Below, one piece after another: positions 49,486 through 64,000 of a stretch of 64,000 nt of DNA. Under the pieces are notes generated by a model that did no database searches, was not told where the DNA came from, and saw only the letters and a program-made list of their open reading frames with translations. The stretch spans positions 870,501-934,500 of the forward strand of contig NZ_AP022847.1 of NCBI RefSeq assembly GCF_015100395.1. The letters run 5' to 3'. A program made the translations under genes and the position numbers. The stretch's first letter is position 1. Every line of letters starts with the position of its first letter. Source of the DNA: Nitrosophilus alvini (GTDB taxonomy: Bacteria; Campylobacterota; Campylobacteria; Campylobacterales; Nitratiruptoraceae).

Positions 49486-50550
49486 TTACTCTATATCATC
49501 CATTATACTGGCTGCTTTATAGAGTTTGTCCCTGTCAAAATGTGTATATATCCTTGACGTATCAAGACTAGCATGCCCTAGAGCCTCCTGTACCAAAACC
49601 AGATCCTTGCTTTTGCGATAGAGCAGGGTAGCAAAGCTGTGGCGTAGCATATGAGCTCCGTTTTTCTCTTTTCTGATACCTGCACTCATCAAAATTTTTT
49701 CAACAATTCGGCTGATATATGCCTGGGTAAGGGTAGTGCCCTTTTTATTGCAAAATAGCAGTTCATTTTCGCAATTTCTAAGACTCAGCCACTCCTGCAG
49801 ATCACTTTTTATATGTTTTGATTTTATCATAACAACTCTGTGTTTGTTTCCTTTTCCCAAAATCTTAATAAGATATATATCTTTTTCAGGGATTATATCT
49901 TTTATTCTCAGTCCTATGGCTTCTCCTACACGAATACCTGTATAGAGTATAATTTTTATAATAAGTCTGTTTCTTGCAGCAACATCGCTTCTGAACGGGT
50001 AGGTTTCAATTGCTTCCAGAAACTTTGAAATCTCATCTTCTGTCAGGTATTCCGGGAGTTTTTGCCCCGATTTTCCCTTCAGACCACCCCAGTTTTTCAG
50101 CTCTATTCTGTATACATGGGCATTTCCGCTGTCATCAAGATTTTGTTTGTCTATATACGCAAAAAAATTTATCATAGCTATACGATGATTTTTCTTTGTG
50201 GCATCAGAAAGGCCTCCCGTTTCGCTTGTAAGAAAATCTACAATCATCTCTTCGTCTATCTCTTTCATAGATGCCGGACCCATCATAATAAGATATCTGT
50301 AAAGTTTTTCAAGTGGCTTGAAATAGGTATTTATACCGATAAGCCCTGCATTTCTTGCCTCTTTTACCAAATCGGCCAGTTCTTCAATGGAGTCGGTTCC
50401 AAGTGTCAATTTTTTTATAACATATGCCAGGCGATCTTTGTCTTTTACCTGTCTGTTGGAAAGCGAATTTAGTTTATGCCTTATAAATCTCTCCATCCAA
50501 AACAGCAAAGTATCTTCAAATCTATCTTTGAAATCTATCGGATAATGCAT
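49486..50550 (-). CDS. xerH: Tyrosine recombinase XerH (chromosome dimer resolution)
   Basis: The 354-residue integrase-fold protein has the catalytic set R207 (GIRVGEAIGL), Lys233/236 (GKGNKHRVV), H300 and R303 (HMLRHSFATLL), H326 and Tyr335 (ALGHASLDTSRIYTHF). The N-terminal SAM-like core-binding domain covers about 60-155. Length and the single-recombinase context fit XerH of Campylobacterota, which resolves chromosome dimers at difH with FtsK. A dif-like sequence lies immediately upstream. Confidence 0.92.
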   Translation of the reverse strand: MHYPIDFKDRFEDTLLFWMERFIRHKLNSLSNRQVKDKDRLAYVIKKLTLGTDSIEELADLVKEARNAGLIGINTYFKPLEKLYRYLIMMGPASMKEIDEEMIVDFLTSETGGLSDATKKNHRIAMINFFAYIDKQNLDDSGNAHVYRIELKNWGGLKGKSGQKLPEYLTEDEISKFLEAIETYPFRSDVAARNRLIIKIILYTGIRVGEAIGLRIKDIIPEKDIYLIKILGKGNKHRVVMIKSKHIKSDLQEWLSLRNCENELLFCNKKGTTLTQAYISRIVEKILMSAGIRKEKNGAHMLRHSFATLLYRKSKDLVLVQEALGHASLDTSRIYTHFDRDKLYKAASIMDDIE

Positions 50551-50568
50551 CGTAAGCCTTTTCTCTTT

Positions 50569-50598
50569 TAGTATTGAAAACTATAATTTTCAAACTAT
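50569..50598. other. Candidate difH recombination site
   Basis: Inverted arms TTGAAAA (50574-50580) and TTTTCAA (50587-50593) surround a 6-base CTATAA centre; TAGT flanks both arms with a one-base offset. The centre GAAAACTNNAATTTTC resembles, from memory, H. pylori and C. jejuni difH sites. It is 19 bases upstream of xerH. Deciding it needs alignment to known difH. Confidence 0.55.
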
Positions 50599-50682
50599 AT
50601 TTTATCGCAATATCATTAATGCACTCTTATATGCTTTATCCGTTAGAAAAAAAATCAAAATGAAAGAAAAAACCGCAAACAT

Positions 50683-50791
50683 TAACATGTGTTCACCCTG
50701 ATAATCTATCATATGAACATGTGTTAACATATTCCTAAATACATATGAACAGCCGTTAATTTATATCTATTTGACATATGAACAACTGTTA
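50683..50791 (+). promoter_or_regulatory. Array of four TetR-type operator boxes
   Basis: The box TGAACA-N3-GTTA occurs at 50714-50726, 50746-50758 and 50779-50791 on the + strand, and inverted at 50683-50695 (TAAC-N3-TGTTCA). Start-to-start spacing is 31-33 bases, about three helical turns. Three copies share an ATATGAACA extension. The array fills the gap before the tetR gene and probably mediates autoregulation. Confidence 0.75.
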
Positions 50792-50817
50792 GGTAAAATA
50801 ACACAAAAGGAGTCTAT

Positions 50818-51453
50818 ATGTCCGAAAACATGGGAACTGTAAAGAGTGAGCGAGGGAAAAATACAAAAGAAAAGATACTCAAAGCAGCACAGGAACTTAT
50901 TGCGGAGCATGGCTATAAGGGTGCGTCAATCAGAAAGATAGCAAAGGCCGTAGGAATAAGAGAAAGTGCTATTTATAACCATTTTAAAAACAAAGAAGAG
51001 ATATTTCAAACTATTATGAAGGAGCTCTTCTCTACCCCTTTTTCAAACTTTTTTGAAAGAAAACCTGTCTCGGAACACGCCCTTAAAGGCAAGAAATTCC
51101 TGTATGAATATGCAGCATCAATAAAGCTTGTATCCTTTGACAAAACAAATGAAAAGATGTTTAGAATCATTTTGATAGAACTGATGCAAAACAGAGATGT
51201 AAGAGAATCATTTTTAAAGTATTTTTATGAAGACAATATCAAAAAATTGGCCGAAGCATTTTTTGTAATGATGCAAAACTCGCTCATTCGCTCATCAGAT
51301 CCTATGCTTATGGCACAGGAGTTTTTTGCACCTATTTTTTACTACAGAATACATATAACCCTTTTGAGGCTCGACGAAAAGCCAACTACAACACTTTCTA
51401 CCATGTTCGAAAAGCACGTTGATTTTTTCTGGGAGTCCGTTTCTATAGACTAA
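50818..51453 (+). CDS. TetR-family transcriptional regulator
   Basis: The 211-residue protein has the TetR helix-turn-helix: TKEKILKAAQELIAEHGYKGASIRKIAKAVGIRESAIYNHFKNKEEIFQ (about 17-65), then a helical ligand-binding domain without recognisable ligand residues. AAAGGAG precedes the ATG. Four operator-like boxes lie just upstream. No efflux or metabolic gene is adjacent in the same direction; its 3' end overlaps RNase Z (convergent) by 11 bases. Targets beyond itself are unknown. Confidence 0.92.
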   Translation: MSENMGTVKSERGKNTKEKILKAAQELIAEHGYKGASIRKIAKAVGIRESAIYNHFKNKEEIFQTIMKELFSTPFSNFFERKPVSEHALKGKKFLYEYAASIKLVSFDKTNEKMFRIILIELMQNRDVRESFLKYFYEDNIKKLAEAFFVMMQNSLIRSSDPMLMAQEFFAPIFYYRIHITLLRLDEKPTTTLSTMFEKHVDFFWESVSID

Positions 51454-52426
51454 TATTTTTTAATATCAATCTATTATCTTTGTCAAATTCATAAACGTCA
51501 AAATCATTTGCAAGAAAAAGATTGCCTCTGTAAAACATTCTTGCTTCATTATATATCTCTTTAATCGTATGGGAGTTTTTATCATGCGACTCTGTAAAAC
51601 GTGAACTAAAATGTGTCAGAATAAGATTCTTTGTTTTAGACTTGTTAGCTGCAATTGCAACTGATTTTGCAGTTGAATGCATTACTTTTATTTTGATTTT
51701 TTTGTAAACCTCTTCGGTGTATGTAGCTTCATGTACAAAAACATCGCAACCGGTTTTTTCCAGATACGGAACGACAATATCCGGTCTATCGTTGTCGCCG
51801 GCTATCAAAAGTACCCTTCCCTTTATTCTCTCTTCTACAAAATCTCTTCCAAAAAACTCTCTGCCATCTTCTAGAACTACTTTTTCTCCTCTTTTCAGTT
51901 TTGCATACAGATGCCCTTCCGGAATTCCAAGCTCTTTCGCCTTTTGGATATTGAAACGCCCCGGTTTGTCAAACTCTTTTAAAAGATAAGCATAGCTTGT
52001 TATAGTGTGTGAGAGCTTTATGGTATATACATCAAAATTTTCTATTTGTATATGCTCATTTTCTTCGACCTCTTTGATATTTATGTCAAATGATAGATTA
52101 AGCTGCGATACGTCAAATATCGTTTCAAGAAATTTTTTTACTCCCTTTGGACCGTAAATAGCAAGATGACCTGCGCCGCTCTGCATGGATCTGGTGGCAA
52201 GCAAGCCGGGAAGTCCGTATAAATGGTCTCCGTGCAGATGCGTTATGAATACGGTTTTGAGTTTGGCAATTGAAAGCAGAGGCATTCTTAAAATCTGGTG
52301 CTGTGTAGCTTCTCCACAGTCAAAAAGGATCCATTCTCTTGTCTGAAAAGGTTTTATTGCAAGAGCTGATACATTTCTGTTCAGTGTAGGCTTTCCCGCA
52401 CTCGTTCCCAAAAATATCAGCTGCAT
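51443..52426 (-). CDS. rnz: Ribonuclease Z
   Basis: The 327-residue metallo-beta-lactamase-fold nuclease trims tRNA 3' trailers. It starts MQLIFLGTSAGKP and has the zinc motif THLHGDHLYGLPGLLATRS near residues 60-78, the exosite-like insertion (about 150-200) and the later Asp and His ligands in IAGDNDRPD and ILTHFSSRF. It overlaps the methyltransferase stop by 10 bases and thus lies in one operon with it. Confidence 0.94.
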   Translation of the reverse strand: MQLIFLGTSAGKPTLNRNVSALAIKPFQTREWILFDCGEATQHQILRMPLLSIAKLKTVFITHLHGDHLYGLPGLLATRSMQSGAGHLAIYGPKGVKKFLETIFDVSQLNLSFDINIKEVEENEHIQIENFDVYTIKLSHTITSYAYLLKEFDKPGRFNIQKAKELGIPEGHLYAKLKRGEKVVLEDGREFFGRDFVEERIKGRVLLIAGDNDRPDIVVPYLEKTGCDVFVHEATYTEEVYKKIKIKVMHSTAKSVAIAANKSKTKNLILTHFSSRFTESHDKNSHTIKEIYNEARMFYRGNLFLANDFDVYEFDKDNRLILKNISL

Positions 52427-52974
52427 GTTCTGCTCCTTGCAGCAATAGATGCTACCGGTACATGTTTTCCATCTTCTCTAACAATCTCCTTTTCTTCATA
52501 GTATATAATATGAAAATCATAAAAAAGCCCCAGAAGCTCGTTGACTCTTAAAAGATACTCTTCTTTAAAAGGTTTTATGTTTTCTGAAAGCAAAAATGTT
52601 TCATATATCACCACTCCACCAGGTTTAAGCCCCTCTTTTATAAACGGAAAAAGCCTTCTGTTAAGATAGTATGAGCATACTATCAGGTCGTAGCTTTTTT
52701 TTGGTATTTCATATTCGTCCAAATCCGCAACTATTGTATTTATATTTTCTGTTTTAGAAAGCTTTTCTAAAGCAACATCCGAGATATCAACCGCATCTAC
52801 CAAAAAACCTACTTTAGCCAGGAATTTTGCATTTCTTCCGAATCCACAAGCTATATCAAGAGCTTTATTACCGGATGATAGATGATAAAACTTTTTTAAT
52901 GTCTCAATCGCCTCTTCGCTTACGGGAGGATTTTTTAAATACTTTTCATTCCATCTTGTTTTGTCATTTATCAT
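52417..52974 (-). CDS. Class I SAM-dependent methyltransferase
   Basis: Start is ATG 52974, with AAAGGG upstream inside the end of the preceding gene. The 185-residue product contains WNEKYLKNPP and the SAM-binding KALDIACGFGRNAKFLAKVGFLVDAVDISDVAL, followed by YDLIVCSYYL and GGVVIYETFL. This plan is like TehB/methyltransferase type 11 proteins; the substrate is unknown. It overlaps neighbours on both sides in a leftward operon. Confidence 0.85.
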   Translation of the reverse strand: MINDKTRWNEKYLKNPPVSEEAIETLKKFYHLSSGNKALDIACGFGRNAKFLAKVGFLVDAVDISDVALEKLSKTENINTIVADLDEYEIPKKSYDLIVCSYYLNRRLFPFIKEGLKPGGVVIYETFLLSENIKPFKEEYLLRVNELLGLFYDFHIIYYEEKEIVREDGKHVPVASIAARSRTCS

Positions 52975-53404
52975 CAGAGACCCTTTCAAGCATTTCAAGA
53001 AGTTCTTTATAGTTCTCAACTCCTCTGAAACTCTTTTCAAGCCTCCATCTCAGAACAAACTCGCATATATCTTTTATCGCTGAAAGCCCTAGTTTTTCCG
53101 CTCTGCCGAAATATTTTATATTTATATTTTTCATCTTTTTTCTGTTATCTTCATCAACACTCATTATTCCTATTATTTGGGCATACTTGCCCTCTTTTAC
53201 CTCTCCCAGACTCTCATTATTCAAAGAGATGCCTCCAAGATTCATCGCTTTAAATTCAAAAATCGAATCAAAATCATCAATCTTTTCATCTATGCAGAGC
53301 TTTTTATAGAGTTTTTTCAAAGTTTTCAAATTTTCTCTTCTAAGAAGCTCGAAACTCGCTATTTTTTCCGTTAGTTTTTTTAATCTCTCCAGTCTGTCTT
53401 CCAT
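52964..53404 (-). CDS. Hypothetical protein (146 aa)
   Basis: The 146-residue product has an N-terminal coiled-coil helix (MEDRLERLKKLTEKIASFELL...), a middle beta part with NLGGISLNNESLGEVKEGKYAQIIGIMSVDEDNRKK and a helical end. No catalytic motif is seen. It overlaps the methyltransferase gene by 11 bases and precedes it, so it is the first gene of the operon with rnz. Divergent from murA. Function unknown. Confidence 0.72.
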   Translation of the reverse strand: MEDRLERLKKLTEKIASFELLRRENLKTLKKLYKKLCIDEKIDDFDSIFEFKAMNLGGISLNNESLGEVKEGKYAQIIGIMSVDEDNRKKMKNINIKYFGRAEKLGLSAIKDICEFVLRWRLEKSFRGVENYKELLEMLERVSDDK

Positions 53405-53464
53405 AATTCTCTCCCGGACTATTTATATTAGATAATATAATAACTATCTTTAAACAGAATTTAG

Positions 53465-53470
53465 TATAAT
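53465..53470 (+). promoter_or_regulatory. murA: Putative -10 element of murA
   Basis: TATAAT lies 27 bases before the murA ATG in the divergent gap. A -35 box is not clear. Confidence 0.4.
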
Positions 53471-53497
53471 TACATCACTTATTGATAAAGGTATCAA

Positions 53498-54760
53498 ATG
53501 GATTATCTTGAAATCGAAGGCGGAAGAAAACTCAAAGGAAGTGTTAAGATATCCGGAGCAAAAAATGCTGCTCTACCCCTTATAGCATCAACTATATTGG
53601 CAAAAAACAGAGTCTCTATGACTAACATCCCTAATGTTGCCGATATCAGAACACTGCTTCAACTTCTTAAAATTTTAGGCGCACAGTTTGAACTGAATAA
53701 TAGTGATCTTAATATAGATACATCAGGAGTTTCAAGTACAACTGCAATTTACGATATAGTCAGAACTATGAGAGCATCCATTCTTGTACTGGGTCCCCTG
53801 CTCTCTCGCTTCGGTCACTGCGAGGTAAGCCTTCCGGGAGGATGTGCAATAGGACAAAGACCTATTGATCTACATTTAAAAGCACTTGAACAGATGGGTG
53901 CAAACATTGAGATAAAAAACGGATATGTTATTGCAAAAGCAAAAAACGGCTTAAGAGGCGCTCATATTATATTTGACAAAATAACTGTAACAGGAACAGA
54001 AAACGTAATAATGGCTGCTGCTCTGGCAAAAGGCAAAACGACAATAGTCAATGCCGCAAAAGAGCCTGAGGTTGTCCAGCTTTGCGAAGTGTTAAAGTCC
54101 GCCGGAGTTGAAATAGAAGGAATAGGCAGTGATGAGATTGCTGTTGTGGGGAGCGAACGTGAACTTCTTGAGTTTAAACCTGTTGATGTTATTCCTGACA
54201 GGATAGAAGCCGGAACATATCTTTGTGCCGGAGCCATAACAAACTCTGAGATAACAGTTGAGAACGTGATAGAGAGCCATCTTGATGCTGTTATCACAAA
54301 ACTTAATCAGATGGGTTTTGAAACGGAGACAAAAAACAGATCCATAACTATAAAACCGGCTGCAAAAATATATCCTGTTGAGATTGTAACATCAGAGTAC
54401 CCAGGTTTTCCAACCGATATGCAGGCTCAGTTTTTGGCTCTTGCGCTTAAAGCGGAAGGTACATCGATTATAGAGGAGAGACTTTTTGAAAACAGATTTA
54501 TGCATGTGAGCGAGCTTATGAGGTTCGGTGCCGTAATTCACCTGAAAGGAAATATTGCAACTGTAAACGGTCCGGCGAAACTCTACGGCGCAGACGTTAT
54601 GGCAACTGACCTTAGAGCAAGCAGTGCACTTGTTTTAGCCGGTCTGACTGCAAAAGGAAAAACTAAAGTTCATAGAATTTATCATCTTGACAGAGGATAT
54701 TCAAAACTTGAAGAAAAATTAAACGCTCTTGGAGCTTCTATAAAACGTCTCAAAGAGTAG
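53498..54760 (+). CDS. murA: UDP-N-acetylglucosamine 1-carboxyvinyltransferase
   Basis: The 420-residue enzyme commits UDP-GlcNAc to peptidoglycan by adding enolpyruvate. Conserved blocks are [15 protein letters not shown] with the catalytic Lys/Asn, [16 protein letters not shown] with the active-site Cys (target of fosfomycin), [12 protein letters not shown] and PTDMQAQF, and the C-terminal RIYHLDRGY. The Cys is kept, so the enzyme should be fosfomycin-sensitive by family knowledge. Confidence 0.97.
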
Positions 54761-54768
54761 GCAATACC

Positions 54769-55146
54769 CTACTCTTCAAAAATAATAATTTCGTAACTAT
54801 CTCTTTTTTTAACCATAGAACGATTTTTCGGTATCTGACCGTTTGCAGCCTGATAATTTGCAAGTTCATCTTTAAGCTCTTCTATCTCTCTTTCCATCTC
54901 TTCCATCTGTTCCTTGAGCCTTAGAATAATATCTACACCTGCAAGATTTACGCCCAATTCTCTTGTCAAACGAAGAATCATTTTAATTCTGTCTATATCT
55001 CTTTGAGAATAAAGCCTCATCTTACCTTCTGTTCTTGAAGGTTTTACAAGTCCTTCTCTTTCATACTGTCTGAGTGTCTGCGGATGTATTTTCAAAACTT
55101 TTGCAACTACGCTTATCAGAAATACCGGTTCATCATATCCATGCAT
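54769..55146 (-). CDS. hspR: MerR-family heat-shock regulator HspR
   Basis: The 125-residue protein has a MerR helix-turn-helix (EPVFLISVVAKVLKIHPQTLRQYEREGLVKPSRTEGKMRLYSQRDI) and a coiled coil (about 75-105), the plan of HspR. HspR represses chaperone genes through HAIR inverted repeats. Its ATG overlaps the dnaJ stop (TAATG). It is encoded with a CbpA-like DnaJ, an arrangement known from Helicobacter and Campylobacter. A HAIR-like repeat is found at 60261 before htpG. Confidence 0.9.
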   Translation of the reverse strand: MHGYDEPVFLISVVAKVLKIHPQTLRQYEREGLVKPSRTEGKMRLYSQRDIDRIKMILRLTRELGVNLAGVDIILRLKEQMEEMEREIEELKDELANYQAANGQIPKNRSMVKKRDSYEIIIFEE

Positions 55147-56030
55147 TATTCACCTCCTGGAAGCCTCTCTTCCATCATTTTCCTAAGTTCGGGATCAAGT
55201 TCTTCTACTTTAGGTAAAATTATATTTGCTCTTAGGTAAAGATCTCCTTTTATACCGGTTTTACGATTTAAAACTCCCAGTCCTTTTACTCTGAATTTCT
55301 GTCCGCACTTTGTATTTTGAGGTACTTTCAAAGTTATCTCTTTTTCCAAAGTCTGAACCTTTACTTTTCCACCGAACATAGCGGTTTTAAGAGGAATATC
55401 TATATCTTTGTAAAGATTATAACCTACCCTTTCGTATTCGGGACTCGGAGCAACCTCCACTTTTAAAAGAAGATCTCCTCTTTTTCCGTTATAGCTTTTT
55501 CCTTTTCCCCTGATTCTTAAAGTTTCACCTGTCTTTACACCGGGTGGTATTCTTATATCAAAAGTTTCTCCGTTGATTGTTATGCTGTGTGTTCCACCCA
55601 ATACCGCAGTATTGAATGGTATGGTTATTTTTGCGTGGATATCGAGATCTGGCATTGCATACTCTTCAAACCCGAAGCCGCCAAATCCTCCAAATCCGCC
55701 GCCTCTTCCACTCTCAAATCTGAAACCGCCGCCGAAAATATTTCTGAGTATCTCATCAAGATCCACATTTTGATGAAACTGCTGCTGTGCAAAATCATGA
55801 AAATTCTGTCCACCGAACATCGCATCACCATACTGGTCATACTGTTTTCTCTTTTCTGGATCACTTAAAATCTCATATGCAGCATTTATCTCTTTAAATT
55901 TCTCTTCTGCATCGGGATCTTTGTTGATATCGGGATGATACTTCCTTGCTAATTTTCTATACGCTTTTTTTATCTCATCGGCACTTGCATCAGGACTGAT
56001 ACCCAATGTCTCATACAAACTTTTGCTCAA
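55146..56030 (-). CDS. cbpA: DnaJ-class co-chaperone, CbpA-like
   Basis: The 294-residue protein has a J domain (residues 5-68, with HPDIN), a Gly/Phe-rich linker ([15 protein letters not shown]) and two C-terminal beta domains with [18 protein letters not shown], but no zinc-finger CxxCxGxG repeats. This is the CbpA type, a DnaK partner. Start TTG 56030 follows AGGAGG. A minus-strand TATAAT lies at 56079. It forms an operon with hspR. Confidence 0.92.
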
Positions 56031-56078
56031 TTTGTGCCTCCTAATTTATATTGTCTTACCGGGATAATGTTTATAGCT

Positions 56079-56084
56079 ATTATA
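56079..56084 (-). promoter_or_regulatory. Putative -10 element of cbpA-hspR
   Basis: TATAAT on the minus strand about 50 bases before the TTG start. No HAIR consensus was found nearby on inspection. Confidence 0.4.
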
Positions 56085-56159
56085 GCATAAAAGTTTAGTC
56101 AAAATCAATCAATTTATATACTATTATATTGTAGAGTTTAGAAGTAAGAGGAGTTAATA

Positions 56160-56519
56160 CTATAAAGGTTTGTTGTAAAAATAGACCCAGGAACTATATA
56201 CTTTTCCATTAAAACCTAAAACTCTTGCTTTGACTCTTCTATATTCGTACTTTCGAATATTGTACTTTGAAGCCTCTTCATACTTATCCAGAAGTTTTAG
56301 AAGTTTTTTAGCTTTTTCTATCTTATATATCTCTCCAACTACTTTATCTTTCTGATAAACAGAAGGTAGAAGACCGGGATACCAGGATATCTGAACTATT
56401 TTACCCTTTATGCTCCCTTTTGTTACAAATTTTGCAAAAGAACGAAGTTTTTTTGCGTAATAGTTTTTATATTCACTTTTAAGTGTTCCATAAACGAAGA
56501 TATATTCACTCTTTTGCAT
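56160..56519 (-). CDS. Gamma-glutamylcyclotransferase (GGCT/AIG2)-like protein
   Basis: The 119-residue protein has the family start FVYGTLKSEYKNYY (substrate-binding YGTL) and LLDKYEEASKYNIRKYEYRRVKARVLG, where the Glu of the EE pair is in place for the catalytic acid/base. Members cyclise gamma-glutamyl amines; many bacterial ones are uncharacterised. It is a small separate gene between cbpA and the diguanylate cyclase. Confidence 0.8.
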   Translation of the reverse strand: MQKSEYIFVYGTLKSEYKNYYAKKLRSFAKFVTKGSIKGKIVQISWYPGLLPSVYQKDKVVGEIYKIEKAKKLLKLLDKYEEASKYNIRKYEYRRVKARVLGFNGKVYSSWVYFYNKPL

Positions 56520-56558
56520 TTCTATTTTATAGTTTTATCATAAAGAATATAACTATTT

Positions 56559-58313
56559 TCACTGTAGACTACTTCTATCTCTACCTGTTTTTTTGGCAAT
56601 ATACATTAATTCATCAGACTTTCTTATAAGTTCTTTAACATTTTTTTCTTTTTCATATTGAGCTATACCGGCACTGAAGGAGTAAACAATATTTTGGTTT
56701 GTAACTTCAACTCCATTTTTTTGTTTTAAAGTATTACGGATTCTTTCAACTACGAGATAGGCATCTTTTTTTGAGGTAAAAGGCATGAGAATTAAAAACT
56801 CTTCTCCGCCGTAACGAAAAAGAAAATCACTCTCTCTAAGATTAGAGTGTAAAAGACGGGCAAAATCTTTTAATATAATATCCCCTACATCATGTCCATA
56901 TATATCGTTTATGTCTTTGAAATGATCAAGATCAAGCATAACAGCACTCAACGGATATCCGTGCCTTTTAGCTTTATTAAACTCTTTTTGTGCAATTTCA
57001 TCAAGATAATAACGATTATAAAGTCCGGTCAGTCCGTCTGTAATTGTTTTATGCAAAAGTTCGTTGCGCTCTTTTTGCATACGGTAATATCCAATCTCTT
57101 TCATTAGCATTATAGAAAAAAGTTTTCTAAAGTTCTTGAGGATTTCAATGTCTTCAGTATCTATAATCTCATCTTCGGCAAAAAGAAAATAACAGATACC
57201 GTTTGCTGAATGGTGTTCGTTATAGGTGACAAATGGAAAAGCAAAATATTTACCGTGTAGATCGTTTTGTGCTATCTTGTCCACAAAGTATGTTTTTTCT
57301 TCATTTGATAAAATTTTCTCTATCTGTGCAAAAAGTTCTTTTTCGCTTAAATGAATCTCTATAGGATGATTTATAGATGAATCAAACATAACCACTTTAC
57401 CGTCTATACTGCTAAGACACACTACTCTTTCCAGAGCAAAAAGCTCATTCATAAGCATCAAGATGGTACCGATTTTTTCATAAAGAGTTGTTGTTGTAAA
57501 GGTTATCTGTTCAAAAATTTTCGAAAGAATTTCATTTGCTTTCGTAAGGCGCTGAACATTTTTGTAACCTGTAAAATGTAAATATATGCCTACTTCAAGT
57601 TTTCTTAATCTAGAGATAAGATACGGGATCATTTTTTTTGGTATCACTGAACCGTGTTGCGGAGCTATCATCTCAATATCTTTAGCTTCAATCATATCAA
57701 GCCCATGATTGACAATATCTCTACTGGGCATATAGTGAGTATGGAAAAGTTTCATCTGTTCATAATAGACTTTCGGGTCGTCGGCAAAAAGTTTGAAAGT
57801 ATCTCTAAAAGCACCAAAAATATCGCTTGAGAATAGAGTTTTAGTCTCAATATCGTACGTACATATATTGCCTGCAAAATGCATGTAGGGAGTAAAAACA
57901 AACTCAAGCTCTCTATCTTTGGTTTTAAGCTTCCAGTTATTTTCGTCAACTTCGTAAAAATCAATACCCCAGTTATAATGTTTAAGCAGTGCAGCTGTTC
58001 GCCAGTGCGTTACAACAAAACGGTTTTCTGTTCCAATCTCTTTTAGTATATCTTCAATACAGGAGGCAATATCCGGATCTTGATGTTGACATATAATATA
58101 TCTAAGATTTTCCAGCGGTATAACTTCAAGAATTTTTTTTCTTGTAGCTTCCCATGTAAGCTTTGAGCCTGGATCAATAAGAATAGAGTCTTTTCCGTTT
58201 TCAATAAGATAAACATGACACTGAAATGGATCATCAGGAATAACATACCCTACCCACCATATTTTGGGCGCAATTTCGATAGCATGCTCATAATTGTAAG
58301 CATTTTTGTCCAT
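56559..58313 (-). CDS. Flavodiiron-type metallo-beta-lactamase domain fused to a diguanylate cyclase
   Basis: The 584-residue cytoplasmic protein has an N-terminal MBL domain of the flavodiiron/ODP type (about 10-245). Putative diiron ligands are H77, D79, D81, H145, D164 and H220, near the H-E-D-H-D-H set of flavodiiron proteins, with Asp replacing Glu at the second place. The flavodoxin domain is absent. A GAF-like region follows (about 260-405), then GGDEF (about 420-584) with active GGEEF (502-506) and I-site RESD (493-496). It probably makes c-di-GMP in response to O2 or NO; this is inference. Confidence 0.88.
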   Translation of the reverse strand: MDKNAYNYEHAIEIAPKIWWVGYVIPDDPFQCHVYLIENGKDSILIDPGSKLTWEATRKKILEVIPLENLRYIICQHQDPDIASCIEDILKEIGTENRFVVTHWRTAALLKHYNWGIDFYEVDENNWKLKTKDRELEFVFTPYMHFAGNICTYDIETKTLFSSDIFGAFRDTFKLFADDPKVYYEQMKLFHTHYMPSRDIVNHGLDMIEAKDIEMIAPQHGSVIPKKMIPYLISRLRKLEVGIYLHFTGYKNVQRLTKANEILSKIFEQITFTTTTLYEKIGTILMLMNELFALERVVCLSSIDGKVVMFDSSINHPIEIHLSEKELFAQIEKILSNEEKTYFVDKIAQNDLHGKYFAFPFVTYNEHHSANGICYFLFAEDEIIDTEDIEILKNFRKLFSIMLMKEIGYYRMQKERNELLHKTITDGLTGLYNRYYLDEIAQKEFNKAKRHGYPLSAVMLDLDHFKDINDIYGHDVGDIILKDFARLLHSNLRESDFLFRYGGEEFLILMPFTSKKDAYLVVERIRNTLKQKNGVEVTNQNIVYSFSAGIAQYEKEKNVKELIRKSDELMYIAKKTGRDRSSLQ

Positions 58314-58404
58314 TGTAGTTTCCTGATGGGATTTATTTTTGGGTAAAATTATAATAACATAAAACTAATGAATTATAAAGTATTCTTTTACAAAAGGCAA
58401 AAGC

Positions 58405-60222
58405 CTATGAAACAGCTTTTGCCGCAAGAGTATTGATAGCTTTTGCAAAATCGCCTACATTTTTTATTTTCATTCCTTCTAACAGCCTTGCCTCATTGTA
58501 GATCACAGTAGCTACTTCACTAACTAAACTAAAATCGTTAGAAAGTACCATTTTGCCAAAAATTTCATGTTCAGGATTTATTTCTAAAACAGGTTTTGGC
58601 TCTTTTGCGTCAAACTGTCCCATCTGCCTCATCATCTGGTACATCTGAAATTCAGGGTCGTCTTTGTCAAAAACAAGCACTGCAGGAGACTCGGTGAGTC
58701 TGGAGGTGATCTTGACCTCTTTTACATCCTCTTTTAAAATCTCTTTTATTTTTTCCAAAAGATCTTTATATCTGCTCTCATCTATCTCTGATTTTTCAAA
58801 ATCTTCGTCTACTTCAGTACTGGAGATGGACTTGAATGTTTTCTCTTTGTATTGAACCAAAGCAGGCATTACAAAACTATCTATCTCATCTTCGCAAAGA
58901 AGCACCTCAATATCTTCTTTTCTAAAGCGTTCCAATAAAGGAGAATCTTTCAGATTTTCTTCACCTACTAGATAATAGATACCTTTTTGGTCCTGCTTCA
59001 TTCTTTCGACATATGTTTTGAGATCTATATATTCATCGCTCTTTGAGGTCTTAAACAGTAACAGTTCCAATAGAAGTTTTCTGTTTTCAAAATCTGCAAT
59101 AAGCCCCTCTTTGATAACCCTGCCAAAAAGTTCCCAAAATTTGAGATACTTGTCTTTATCTTTTTCTTTAAGTTTTTTAAGTTCGTTCAAAATCTTTTTG
59201 GTAGAAGCCTTTTTGATTTTTGACAAAACAATATTTTGCTGTAATATCTCTCTGCTTACATTAAGCGGCAGGTCTTCTGCATCGATGATACCTCTGACAA
59301 ACCTCAGATAAACAGGCAACAGCTCTTTATCGTCATCCATAATAAATACGTTTTTTACATAAAGTTTTACACCAGACTGATAATCTGCCCTGAACAGATC
59401 AAATGGCCTGCTCGAAGGAATATAAAACAGGGTTGTATACTCTATCGTACCTTCAGCTTTTGTATGAATCCAGTAAAGAGGGTCATTATCGTCGTGGGCA
59501 ATAGTTTTGTAAAATTCTTTATATTCATCTTCGGTTATCTCATTTTTCGATAGCTTCCAAAGAGCGCTTGCTTTATTTATCTGTTCTGGCTCCTTCTGTG
59601 CAAGTTTCAAAAATATTTTATAAGGAATATGGTCTGAGTATTTTTTTACAACCTCTTTTATCTTCCAGTCACTCAAATACTCTTCATCCTCTTTTCTGAT
59701 ATAAAGAATCACATCGGTTCCCTGTGTATCTCTGGTGGCTTCATCTATCTCATATTCATTTCCGGCTTCGCTTCTCCAAATCCAGGCTTTTTTGTCACCG
59801 GCTTTTTTGCTAATCACCTCTATCCTGTCAGCTACCATAAATGCACTGTAAAATCCTACTCCAAACTGTCCTATAAGCTGAGCATCTTTGTTCGCATCAC
59901 CGCTCAAACTCTCCAGAAACTCTTTTGTTCCGCTTTTTGCAATAGTTCCCAGATTTTCTACCAAATCAACATCATCCATACCGATACCGTTGTCACTGAT
60001 AATTAGCCGCTTTTCAACTTCATCAATAGTAATAGTGATTTTTGGATCAAAAGAGATGTTTTTGAATTTTTCATCAGTGAGTGTGAGCAGGTGAAGTTTA
60101 TCCAGTGCATCACTAGCATTGGATATGAGTTCTCTTAAAAAAATCTCTTTGTGCGAATAGAGCGAATGGATCATAAGTTGCAAAAGTTTGCTGACTTCAG
60201 CTTCGAAATGGTGTTTTGCCAC
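58405..60222 (-). CDS. htpG: Molecular chaperone HtpG (Hsp90)
   Basis: The start is GTG 60222, six bases after AGGAGG; an upstream frame start has no signal. The 605-residue protein begins VAKHHFEAEVSKLLQLMIHSLY and has the GHKL ATP site ELISNASDALDKL, DNGIGM and GQFGVGFYSAFMVAD, then middle and dimerisation domains. It remodels client proteins with ATP. A HAIR-like inverted repeat overlaps the likely promoter. Confidence 0.96.
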   Translation of the reverse strand: MAKHHFEAEVSKLLQLMIHSLYSHKEIFLRELISNASDALDKLHLLTLTDEKFKNISFDPKITITIDEVEKRLIISDNGIGMDDVDLVENLGTIAKSGTKEFLESLSGDANKDAQLIGQFGVGFYSAFMVADRIEVISKKAGDKKAWIWRSEAGNEYEIDEATRDTQGTDVILYIRKEDEEYLSDWKIKEVVKKYSDHIPYKIFLKLAQKEPEQINKASALWKLSKNEITEDEYKEFYKTIAHDDNDPLYWIHTKAEGTIEYTTLFYIPSSRPFDLFRADYQSGVKLYVKNVFIMDDDKELLPVYLRFVRGIIDAEDLPLNVSREILQQNIVLSKIKKASTKKILNELKKLKEKDKDKYLKFWELFGRVIKEGLIADFENRKLLLELLLFKTSKSDEYIDLKTYVERMKQDQKGIYYLVGEENLKDSPLLERFRKEDIEVLLCEDEIDSFVMPALVQYKEKTFKSISSTEVDEDFEKSEIDESRYKDLLEKIKEILKEDVKEVKITSRLTESPAVLVFDKDDPEFQMYQMMRQMGQFDAKEPKPVLEINPEHEIFGKMVLSNDFSLVSEVATVIYNEARLLEGMKIKNVGDFAKAINTLAAKAVS

Positions 60223-60260
60223 TTTTGACCTCCTCGTTTTTTTTATTGAAATTTTACCAA

Positions 60261-60280
60261 ATTGAATAGTTCTATTCAAG
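60261..60280 (-). promoter_or_regulatory. htpG: HAIR-like inverted repeat upstream of htpG
   Basis: On the minus strand CTTGAAT-N6-ATTCAAT lies about 40 bases before the htpG start; within it TTGAATAG/CTATTCAA is a perfect 8-bp repeat. It resembles the HspR box CTTGAGT-N7-ACTCAAG with one base less in the spacer. A TAAAAT follows within 10 bases. It could also be a terminator of the upstream siroheme reductase gene. Confidence 0.5.
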
Positions 60281-60305
60281 AAAGTTTAGTGAAGATATAT
60301 AAAAT

Positions 60306-61940
60306 TTAAAGGTTGCTTTCAATATATAGGCTTTTTTCAAGATATTTTATGGCTTCATAAAAGTCCTCTTCTATCAGGGTATAGAAATCGAACTCTTTGA
60401 AATTAAGCAAAAGATTTTTTTCATTGCTTTTCAGATAGACTTTTTTATCTGTATAGAGTCTGGCCAGAAACCAAAAAGCCAGAAATTCTGAAGAGTAACT
60501 ATTCAAAATATTTTTTGAAAATTCTTCGAAATCTAAAAAGCCGCTATTTTCAAATTCATCAAGTATCACACTCAAAACGGAGTTTAGTTTTCTAAGCGGC
60601 ACAGCCCAGTATATCATCCTCGCAGCGGCCTCTGCCTTGGTATAGAGTCCACCAAGATAGAGTCTCACTCCCCTTTCCACTTTCCCGAACAGGTTCGTTC
60701 GTATCCCAACAAAACCGATATCTGATAGTATATGTCTCGCACAACCCTTAAGACAGCCGCTATAGCCTATCTTGATGCCAAGTCTGTTAATATCATCTAA
60801 TATTAATCTATCTGCCTCTTTTTTAGTATCGAAAAGAGAAAATATACAGTATCTGCTTCCGGCGCATGCAAGGATGTTTTCATTTTGAGACAAAGATTCC
60901 AAAGGAAAATATCTCTCTCCCAGTCCGATAATATATAGATTCTGATCTGTTCCTATTCTAACTTCACACTCATTTTGTTCTGCAAACTGAACTATTTTTT
61001 CAAAAGTTTCGATATCTATCTCCCCGTATCTGCTTTTGAATCTATATGCAAAAGAGCCGTTATTTAGAACAAACCAGTCTTCATTTTCTTTATATTTTTC
61101 AGATAACAGAGTACCTGCTTTTATAAACTCCTTTTTATAAAACTCCCCTATTCTCTCTTTAAATTCCTCGATACCTATAAGCTGCAAAAGATGATAAAGC
61201 CTCGCCTTTGTCCTGTTCTCTCTAAGGCCGTACTTTTTATACGCCTTTACGATAGCCTCGAAAAGTGGCAGAACTTCATCTTTTTTTACGAAAATATCTG
61301 CACTTTTTGCAATTTCGAGATTTTTACCCCCAAGATATAGATTAAACCCTGTCACTCCATCCTTTTGGGCCAGGGCAAAATAGCAGTCGTTTCCGAAAAA
61401 GGAGGTGATGTTTTTAGAATTTGCACTGATTGCGGTATTGAATTTTCTGGGAATCATTCCTACAAATTCGGGATTTTTTAAAAAAATTTCCTGCATCTTT
61501 AAAATAATCGGATAGACTTCAAAGCGACAGCTCTGCTCTACTCCATCCAGGGGGTCTGTGACTATATTTCTAAAGTTGTCCGTAAGCGTCTGCCAGGATG
61601 TGATACCGTTTTTCTCCAAATTTTTATGGATTTCCAAAACGGAACAAAAACTTAAACCATGCAGCTCCATCTGCGCCCTTGAAGTGAGGATAATTCTGGC
61701 ATCGTGTTTTTTTGCCAGACTCAAAACCATCTTCAGCTTCGAGATTTCTATCCTTCCGGCAGGTATGCGAAGACGCAGCATAAATGTTTCTGGGCTTAGT
61801 TTCGTATTATATATGCCGAAATTTTTCAGATAAAATCTGTCTGCTTCTGTCAGACCGTTGTGATTTAGAGTATCTAACTTACTATAATAGTCACAGGGTT
61901 TTAATTCTAATTTTAATTTTTCTATCTTGTTAAGTTTCAT
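60306..61940 (-). CDS. Siroheme-dependent nitrite/sulfite reductase family protein
   Basis: The 544-residue protein has the two-fold repeated plan of ferredoxin-type nitrite and sulfite reductases, with parachute domains (about 45-120 and 280-345). The 4Fe-4S/siroheme ligands are C359 and C365 (CAGSRYC) and C396 and C400 (GYSGCLKGCARH). It may reduce nitrite or sulfite to ammonia or sulfide with ferredoxin as donor; sequence alone does not decide. No partner reductase or siroheme-synthesis gene is close. Confidence 0.85.
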   Translation of the reverse strand: MKLNKIEKLKLELKPCDYYSKLDTLNHNGLTEADRFYLKNFGIYNTKLSPETFMLRLRIPAGRIEISKLKMVLSLAKKHDARIILTSRAQMELHGLSFCSVLEIHKNLEKNGITSWQTLTDNFRNIVTDPLDGVEQSCRFEVYPIILKMQEIFLKNPEFVGMIPRKFNTAISANSKNITSFFGNDCYFALAQKDGVTGFNLYLGGKNLEIAKSADIFVKKDEVLPLFEAIVKAYKKYGLRENRTKARLYHLLQLIGIEEFKERIGEFYKKEFIKAGTLLSEKYKENEDWFVLNNGSFAYRFKSRYGEIDIETFEKIVQFAEQNECEVRIGTDQNLYIIGLGERYFPLESLSQNENILACAGSRYCIFSLFDTKKEADRLILDDINRLGIKIGYSGCLKGCARHILSDIGFVGIRTNLFGKVERGVRLYLGGLYTKAEAAARMIYWAVPLRKLNSVLSVILDEFENSGFLDFEEFSKNILNSYSSEFLAFWFLARLYTDKKVYLKSNEKNLLLNFKEFDFYTLIEEDFYEAIKYLEKSLYIESNL

Positions 61941-61995
61941 TTTTTACCAATACTTCTAAATTCAGCTGATTCGATGCTTTAGACTCTCTTTCTTG

Positions 61996-62130
61996 CTATT
62001 TCAATTCAAGTCCGCCACAATCATCAAACGACATTTCATCATGAAACTGTTTTTTTGTCAAGTCCGGTTTAAAACCGCACCTTTTATATAAAGCAACAAT
62101 TTACTTCATGTTACCAGAAGAAACCGACTA
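61996..62130 (-). pseudogene. Remnant of a GNAT-family acetyltransferase C-terminus
   Basis: In the 300-base gap between the siroheme reductase and a GGDEF gene, the minus strand encodes SVSSGNMK, then a stop, then IVALYKRCGFKPDLTKKQFH and a terminal stop at 61996. ALYKRCGF matches the GNAT motif (A-x-x-LY-x-x-x-GF). No open frame or start precedes it, so it appears to be a decayed gene end. The rest of the gap is AT-rich without recognised features. Confidence 0.5.
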
Positions 62131-62256
62131 TACGTTAAAATGATTCACCGTAGAAGAAAAAATATAAAAAAAGTTGGGTTTTTATATAAAGGCTAAAAGT
62201 TTTATGTTAATATTGTCTATTAATTTTATATATCAATATGTTATAAAGGATAAAAT

Positions 62257-63342
62257 ATTTATAACAAATTTGTAAATATATACAGAAATCTTTACAAAAC
62301 TAAAAACGAAGAGTTTTCCCAGGCAATTGCAAGAATCCTATATTCATTATTGGTAATTATATATTTATCAATTCTTAGCTATTTGGAATTATTGAAAGAA
62401 AAATACATATTTGTCTTCTCTCTTGCAACTCTCTATTTCATATACTCTATTATTCATGCAATTTGGATATACAAAAAACCTCAAAGCAGTTTTTATAGAC
62501 AACTTGCAGTTATAATTTCTGATATAGCCGCAGTTTCAATAGGAATGATTGCAGCCGGCGAGGTTGGAAGTTTTTTCTATTTTTTATATTTATGGATCAT
62601 TTTAGGCAACGGCTTAAGATTTGGAGAAAAACATCTTTATATAGCCACAATTACAGGCATATTGGGATTTTGCACAGTTTTTTATTTTAGCGATTATTGG
62701 CGTAGCCAACCATTTTTAAGTTCAGGCTTTCTGTTTTCCCTGTTTGTTCTGCCTCTTTTTTATTTTATTCTTGTTCGCAGGCTGCATAAACAAAACAACA
62801 AATTGATAGAAGATCTTAAAAAAACAGAATTTTTTGCGCTCCATGACTCTTTGACAATGCTGCCGAACAGAGCGTTTCTGCTTACAAAAATCGATAAAAT
62901 GATAAACAATAACAAAACATTTGCATTTCTTTTTATTGATCTGGATAATTTCAAACAGGCCAACGACAAATATGGACACGATTTTGGCGATCAGATACTG
63001 AAAGAAGTCGGGAAAAGATTGAAAATATTCGAAAAACAGGGATTTTTTCTGGCACGACTCGGCGGTGATGAATTTGCGATAATTATAAATAGCTGTAATA
63101 AAAGTTTTTTAGAAAAAGTAGCAACTGAAATAATCAAAGAGCTGGAAAAACCATACAACCTTACACATAAAATCTCTTTTTTATCAGCAAGTATCGGAAT
63201 CTATTGTAAAAAGAATAATGAAAAAATCAAAATTTCAGATACTTTGAAAAATGCAGATGAAGCTATGTATATTGCCAAAATAAACAAATTGGGATTCGCT
63301 TTTTATGACAAACAAAACAGTTTGGCACTCCAGACAGCTTGA
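62257..63342 (+). CDS. Membrane-bound GGDEF diguanylate cyclase, apparent ATT start
   Basis: The open frame reaches upstream to a stop at 62251-62253, with no ATG, GTG or TTG before TTG 62350, which lies inside the first hydrophobic helix. ATT 62257 follows AAAGGA at a 6-base spacing, giving 361 residues starting IYNKFVNIYRNLYK. Five to six membrane helices (about 25-180) precede a GGDEF domain with DLDNFKQANDKYGHDFGD and active RLGGDEF. No I-site RxxD is present. A start at 62350 is possible but lacks a Shine-Dalgarno. Confidence 0.8.
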   Translation: MYNKFVNIYRNLYKTKNEEFSQAIARILYSLLVIIYLSILSYLELLKEKYIFVFSLATLYFIYSIIHAIWIYKKPQSSFYRQLAVIISDIAAVSIGMIAAGEVGSFFYFLYLWIILGNGLRFGEKHLYIATITGILGFCTVFYFSDYWRSQPFLSSGFLFSLFVLPLFYFILVRRLHKQNNKLIEDLKKTEFFALHDSLTMLPNRAFLLTKIDKMINNNKTFAFLFIDLDNFKQANDKYGHDFGDQILKEVGKRLKIFEKQGFFLARLGGDEFAIIINSCNKSFLEKVATEIIKELEKPYNLTHKISFLSASIGIYCKKNNEKIKISDTLKNADEAMYIAKINKLGFAFYDKQNSLALQTA

Positions 63343-63362
63343 AAAGGGTATTTGATTTTTAC

Positions 63363-63396
63363 AGAGTGGACCAAATTTTTGTTTATGGCCCACTCT
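63363..63396. terminator. Terminator hairpin between the GGDEF gene and purH
   Basis: AGAGTGGACC pairs with GGCCCACTCT (one mismatch) across a 14-base loop in the convergent gap. It is followed by a short TTT on the + strand. Confidence 0.6.
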
Positions 63397-63405
63397 TTGC
63401 GACAA

Positions 63406-64000
63406 TTAATGCAAAAAGTGTCTCACACCGGTAAAATAGAGAGCTATGCCATGTTCGTCAGCTGCTTCTATAACCTCCTCGTCTCTGATGCTGCCTCCCG
63501 GCTCTATCACCGCTTTTACGCCTGCTTTTGCCGCTGCATCTATCGAATCTCTGAAAGGGAAAAACGCCTCGCTTGCCATCGCCGAACCACTCACATCAAG
63601 TCCCACTTCCTCGGCTTTTTTAAGAGCACATTTTGCTGCATCTACCCTGCTTGTCATTCCCATTCCGACTGCTACCATAGCAGAATTTTTAACATATACC
63701 ACACAGTTTGATTTTGTGAGAGCCGCAACTTTATATGCGATTTCCAGGTCTTTCATCTCCTGCTCTGTTGCGGCTCTTTTGCTGACCTGTTTCGCATTTT
63801 TTATCTCTTCATCTGTAACTTTGTCGGCATTTTGATAAACAAAACCGCCTTCTATATGCTTGAAATCGTACTTGTCGTTTGCAAGTGTCAGATAATCCGT
63901 TCCCTGCTCGAAAATCTTGATTCTTTTTTTGTTTTCAAAAACTTTCAGTGCATCAGGCTCTACACGTGCAGCGATAACAACTTCAATAAAAATTTTGTTT
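63406..64000 (-). CDS. purH: Bifunctional purine synthesis protein PurH, C-terminal part (5' end outside window)
   Basis: The frame runs from the right window edge to TAA 63406, about 198 residues without a start. It shows the AICAR transformylase C-terminus: [59 protein letters not shown] and the terminal VRHFLH, all PurH signatures. The N-terminal IMP cyclohydrolase part lies beyond the window. It performs the last two steps of IMP synthesis. Confidence 0.96.

Follow-up and report, generated by a model that had tools for sequence, protein, structure and literature searches.

Gene and domain architecture

The window analyzed here, a stretch of 64,000 nucleotides of the Nitrosophilus alvini genome, contains a gene for a protein (hereafter ODP-cyclase) in which an ODP-type metallo-beta-lactamase (MBL) sensor domain is followed by a divergent GAF-like domain, a long helix and a GGDEF diguanylate cyclase domain (Table 1). 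The Pfam search detected PF19583 (ODP) at residues 30-221 with an E-value of 4.1e-61 and a score of 206.7 bits against a cut-off of 27.2, covering positions 1-194 of the 194-position profile, and PF00990 (GGDEF) at residues 424-580 with an E-value of 9.1e-46. No flavodoxin domain was detected by Pfam in the 584-residue protein, the C-terminal side being occupied by GGDEF instead. The middle region, which diverges fast among the relatives, gave no Pfam match at an E-value of 0.001, and no NCBIfam model specific for ODP-cyclase was found. The preliminary description of this DNA had proposed an ODP-type MBL domain with GAF-like and intact GGEEF domains, an I-site and no flavodoxin domain, and Pfam, predicted folds and sequence agree on this architecture. 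The whole genome (1.8 Mb, one contig) has 1 ODP, 26 GGDEF and 13 EAL matches.

Table 1. Positions in the window of the ODP-cyclase gene, its domains and motifs, and the adjacent transcription signals.
Feature	Residues	Window positions	Strand	Basis
ODP-GAF-GGDEF protein, whole gene		56559..58313	minus	intact ORF, ATG start, 584 aa
ODP (flavodiiron-like MBL) sensor domain	1-245	57579..58313	minus	PF19583 and predicted fold
Divergent GAF-like domain	250-395	57129..57566	minus	fold of predicted model
Long signaling helix	396-424	57042..57128	minus	predicted structure
GGDEF diguanylate cyclase domain	424-580	56574..57044	minus	PF00990 and fold match
RxxD I-site, RESD	493-496	56826..56837	minus	sequence; five residues upstream of GGEEF
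Active-site motif GGEEF, intact	502-506	56796..56810	minus	sequence
Motif 2, HQDPD	H77, D79, D81	58071..58085	minus	invariant; same letters in solved ODPs
Motif 3	H145	57879..57881	minus	invariant
Motif 4, bridging Asp position	D164	57822..57824	minus	invariant
Motif 5, APQHG (Q219, ODP-specific glutamine)	Q219-H220	57654..57659	minus	invariant
Gln-Cys-His, signature of fused-ODP clade	31-33	58215..58223	minus	alignment of relatives
Candidate promoter TTGCCT-17-TATAAT of ODP-cyclase gene		58372..58400	minus	consensus match only
Terminator-like hairpin, end of htpG		58396..58423	minus	sequence

Predicted structure

The full-length protein was modeled with AlphaFold2 on 14 relatives, and the folds were compared by structure search of the PDB, with Z values within 1 counted as tied. 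The model had a pLDDT of 85 and a pTM of 0.45, meaning that the folds of the domains are good while their relative placement is not confident. The comparison of the sensor region with ODP and flavodiiron structures, proposed as a check in the preliminary description, matched residues 7-251 to the ODP 6qwo (Z 29.9, rmsd 2.5 A, 242 residues aligned) and to the peroxy-diiron ODP 6r9n (Z 28.7, rmsd 2.0 A, 226 aligned). The cores of flavodiiron proteins (FDPs) ranked after the ODPs (1e5d, Z 28.3), and since such values count as tied, the two families are hardly separable by fold alone. Judged by sequence, unlike by fold, the domain is separated from FDPs in favor of ODP. Indeed, the best hits of the PDB sequence search were the ODP chains of T. 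maritima and T. denticola, with E-values of 1e-26 and 6e-14, the next being 1e-9.

Residues 420-584 matched GGDEF domains (3ign, Z 27.0, rmsd 1.1 A). The middle region modeled alone reached a pLDDT of 88 and a pTM of 0.83, and its match list was dominated by GAF domains (3k2n, Z 12.7, rmsd 3.3 A, 151 aligned). The identities of the domains, their folds and their conserved motifs are clear.

Residues of the putative metal site

H77, D79, D81, H145, D164 and H220, named previously as matching the flavodiiron ligands, were located at these positions, aligned with those of the ODP chains, and were invariant in all 14 rows of an alignment of ODP-cyclases, comprising the N. alvini protein and 13 others 36-74% identical to it. 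Q219 and Q31-C32-H33 were likewise invariant in 14/14. Q219 is a seventh ligand position, missing from the earlier list of six. The T. maritima ODP lacks the third His of motif 2 and has a Gln at motif 5 in its stead (PMC7785958), and the sequence of ODP-cyclase fits this pattern, with Q219 present and I82 in place of the third His. The HxExDH motif of FDPs reads HQDPDI here and HQDPDV in the solved ODPs.

The Asp at the second ligand position had been regarded as a deviation that may tune the site. This idea was abandoned, as HQDPD is normal in the ODP family, occurring in the T. maritima and T. denticola ODPs of solved structure and in nearly every ODP of Campylobacterota. In terms of sequence, the distinctive feature of the fused-ODP clade is Gln-Cys-His at positions 31-33, not the Asp. 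This triplet was found in 35/35 non-degenerate fused ODPs and in 0/26 of the stand-alone ODPs counted. Position 33 is Asn in most stand-alone ODPs, in the solved ODPs and in FDPs. The Gln-Cys-His triplet could change what the site binds.

Gene neighborhood and transcription

The hairpin at the end of htpG suggests separate transcription of the ODP-cyclase gene, which probably has its own promoter, as far as a consensus match can tell. No chemoreceptor gene lies beside it; the neighbors are htpG, GGACT, cbpA and hspR. HspR and CbpA/DnaJ-like genes occur near htpG (window 54769-56030 and 58405-60279), with the ODP-cyclase and GGACT genes between. A link to heat shock through these neighbors was considered and gained no support: HspR-box matches in the window were not above chance, none was located upstream of the gene, the hairpin separates htpG, and the synteny is lost in the relatives L029, L030 and L096. 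The neighborhood differs between families, with htpG/cbpA/hspR here and a DAHP synthase gene elsewhere. No Rfam match was obtained in window 50000-64000 at gathering thresholds.

Two other genes of the window were recorded. A second GGDEF gene (window 62350-63342), 4 kb off on the opposite strand, encodes 330 residues with a hydrophobic N-terminus and a GGDEF motif. A nitrite/sulfite reductase-like protein (window 60306-61940) scored far below all NCBIfam cut-offs. The genome also encodes a cbb3 oxidase (CcoN), which agrees with an organism that meets low O2.

Relatives and phylogeny

PF19583 matches were present in 142 of 397 Campylobacterota genomes. The strong fused matches were either ODP-GGDEF or ODP-histidine kinase proteins; the weaker matches, by their score and length, would be flavodiiron or other MBL proteins. 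The ODP-GGDEF fusions were distributed over several Campylobacterota families and one gammaproteobacterium, and the named relatives, 69-75% identical over the ODP domain, belong to Hydrogenimonas, a Campylobacterales MAG and an uncultured Nitratiruptor. The tree of 63 ODP domains, rooted at its midpoint and giving no direction of change, separated the fused proteins from the rest by a branch with an SH-aLRT of 99, and grouped the kinase fusions together (84) and the cyclase fusions together (94). The cyclase group includes a contig-cut row and a degenerate pair; L082 is labeled 'alone' because its contig ends.

The degenerate pair (L086:847-2346 and L087:604-2118) has intact ORFs of the same architecture in which H33, H77, H145, Q219, H220 and GGEEF are lost, the substitutions including H77N, H145Y, H220Y and Q219R/K. 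As read from these sequences, metal site and cyclase motif were lost jointly in one lineage, and the two proteins are perhaps pseudo-sensors. Separately, in a genome of the same family (L088, G036:C1:1197500-1200600) a frameshift inside the ODP domain splits the ODP-cyclase gene, where decay and sequencing error are indistinguishable.

Split pairs of ODP and GGDEF genes

In the nearest subgroup of stand-alone ODPs, a GGDEF gene on the same strand directly adjoins six of the eight, with spacings of -11, 27, 13, 14, 11 and 12 bp (L095, L122, L123, L124, L126 and L127, respectively). The GGDEF partners have at least three architectures, namely GGDEF alone, REC-GGDEF and GGDEF-EAL. With 5-73 GGDEF genes per genome, a generous estimate expects 0.26 of 8 by chance, and P(>=6) is about 1.4e-8, which the relatedness of the genomes makes less extreme in truth. 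The L095 pair (L095:2317-3883), in which stand-alone ODP and stand-alone GGDEF genes overlap by 11 bp, represents a split form of the fusion. It lies near a DAHP-synthase gene, and in L029, L030 and L096 the fused gene likewise has a DAHP-synthase gene beside it, suggesting a common locus that is split in one case and fused in the others. The synthase was assigned to class II through a Pfam match in L095, and through comparable length and sequence in the other three genomes. More distant stand-alone ODPs adjoin REC-PilZ-like or REC-HD-GYP genes. As a further observation, the stand-alone ODPs of L091-L093 and L128-L133 are located beside a conserved response-regulator protein of about 500 residues, in some cases with a weak C-terminal PilZ match.

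The preliminary description had held that the sensor controls c-di-GMP in response to O2 or NO. Control of c-di-GMP gained comparative support from the tandem ODP/GGDEF genes and from the joint decay of both sites, cases that are few and partly related; these gene arrangements support the view that ODPs and c-di-GMP enzymes work together. O2 as the ligand appears a reasonable transfer from the solved ODPs. For NO, the link would be distant kinship to flavodiiron NO reductases and nothing closer.

Proposed function

The best explanation, to which we assign a probability of roughly 0.7, is that the protein acts in the cytoplasm as a soluble diguanylate cyclase, its c-di-GMP synthesis being set by an ODP-type diiron input. 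The N-terminal MBL-fold domain would hold two irons via H77, D79, D81, H145, D164, Q219 and H220, and its iron loading, together with the reduced versus the O2-bound (peroxo or oxidized) state, would alter the domain. The change may then pass through the GAF-like dimerization domain and the helix of residues 396-424 and reach the paired GGDEF domains of a dimer, as is usual in such cyclases. The signal arriving there would set c-di-GMP synthesis, and the RESD I-site would give product inhibition. Diiron binding, O2 as ligand and dimer signaling are carried over solely from homologues, and the example of the Vibrio cholerae hemerythrin cyclase makes us lean slightly towards the reduced form being the active one.

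It is also conceivable, though rather improbable, that the signal perceived by the ODP domain is not O2 but iron availability, NO, peroxide or a sulfur species; Cys32-His33 would then modify the site, and the output would still be c-di-GMP. The confinement of Gln-Cys-His to fused ODPs among those counted speaks for this, as does the Asn that solved ODPs and FDPs have in place of His33. The FDP relatives reduce NO, and the title of the paper on the T. denticola ODP reportedly names Fe[II] besides O2, both of which point the same way. However, O2-binding ODPs have the same primary ligand positions throughout, the ODP-specific Gln among them. We would give similarly modest odds to the wider proposal that in the whole fused clade, cyclases and kinases alike, the diiron site has been rebuilt, Cys32-His33 lying next to it, and that the c-di-GMP and phosphorelay outputs receive a signal other than plain O2, namely iron state, NO or a sulfur species.

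MBL and GAF folds can act as dimerization modules, and the ODP and GAF regions might be mainly structural: the cyclase would be constitutively active, and these regions would give it a scaffold for dimerization or a module for protein interaction. We consider this very unlikely, as the ligand positions are invariant across divergent proteins and common to the ODP-histidine kinases, and the ligands are gone too where the cyclase motif is lost. Least credible is catalysis by the ODP domain itself, as an O2 or NO reductase or a hydrolase, with its turnover coupled to c-di-GMP by the fusion: the domain folds like flavodiiron reductases, but the protein comes without a flavodoxin domain and has HQDPDI instead of HxExDH, as in sensor ODPs.

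With a diguanylate cyclase with ODP-type input as the preferred reading, c-di-GMP in the microbes that have ODP-cyclase is probably under the control of oxygen (or iron), because relatives encode ODP and GGDEF as neighboring genes. Across Campylobacterota, ODPs adjoin or are fused with GGDEF, GGDEF-EAL, REC-PilZ-like, REC-HD-GYP and histidine-kinase proteins, and because of these many outputs the proposal, if true, would mean a broad route from O2/iron to c-di-GMP in low-oxygen Campylobacterota.

Comparison with known systems

The sensor domain and the enzyme are known separately, as are fusions of ODPs with signaling domains; the pairing of ODP with a cyclase appears to be uncharacterized. 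The part of the TREND paper that describes Muok 2019 states that ODPs fused with signal transduction domains were found (PMC7319448). Searches of the literature brought up no functional study of ODP-cyclases. The O2/redox sensors listed in a 2022 census of c-di-GMP inputs are heme-PAS, protoglobin and hemerythrin, and ODP is absent from it (PMC8846402); with ODP-cyclase, these inputs would gain one more class that does not use heme.

ODP-cyclase shares with the ODPs of T. denticola and T. maritima (6r9n, 6qnm, 6qrq and 6qwo; Muok et al. 2019 PNAS) the Pfam family, the fold (Z 26.9-29.9), the ligand positions HQDPD...H...D...QH and the lack of a flavodoxin domain. Unlike these stand-alone, chemotaxis-linked proteins, it is fused to GAF-GGDEF, and it has His33, within Gln-Cys-His 31-33, where the T. 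maritima ODP has Asn. Porphyromonas PG_0686, on inspection, proved to be of the hemerythrin type and no ODP. The MBL diiron core fold is also that of FDPs such as ROO, FprA and flavorubredoxin (Z up to 28.3), whereas their flavodoxin domain and HxExDH motif are both absent from ODP-cyclase. Further counterparts are the ODP-histidine kinase fusions of Campylobacterota (for example L059, L062 and L065), a sister clade with the same ligand positions and Gln-Cys-His, in which the output is HisKA-HATPase, not GGDEF. The globin-coupled diguanylate cyclases DgcO and BpeGReg carry out the O2-responsive c-di-GMP synthesis proposed here with a heme globin sensor that has neither the MBL fold nor a diiron site. 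VcBhr-DGC, the hemerythrin-diguanylate cyclase of V. cholerae, likewise places a non-heme diiron input on a cyclase and works in the manner proposed for ODP-cyclase, while its sensor is of the unrelated helical hemerythrin fold, not MBL.
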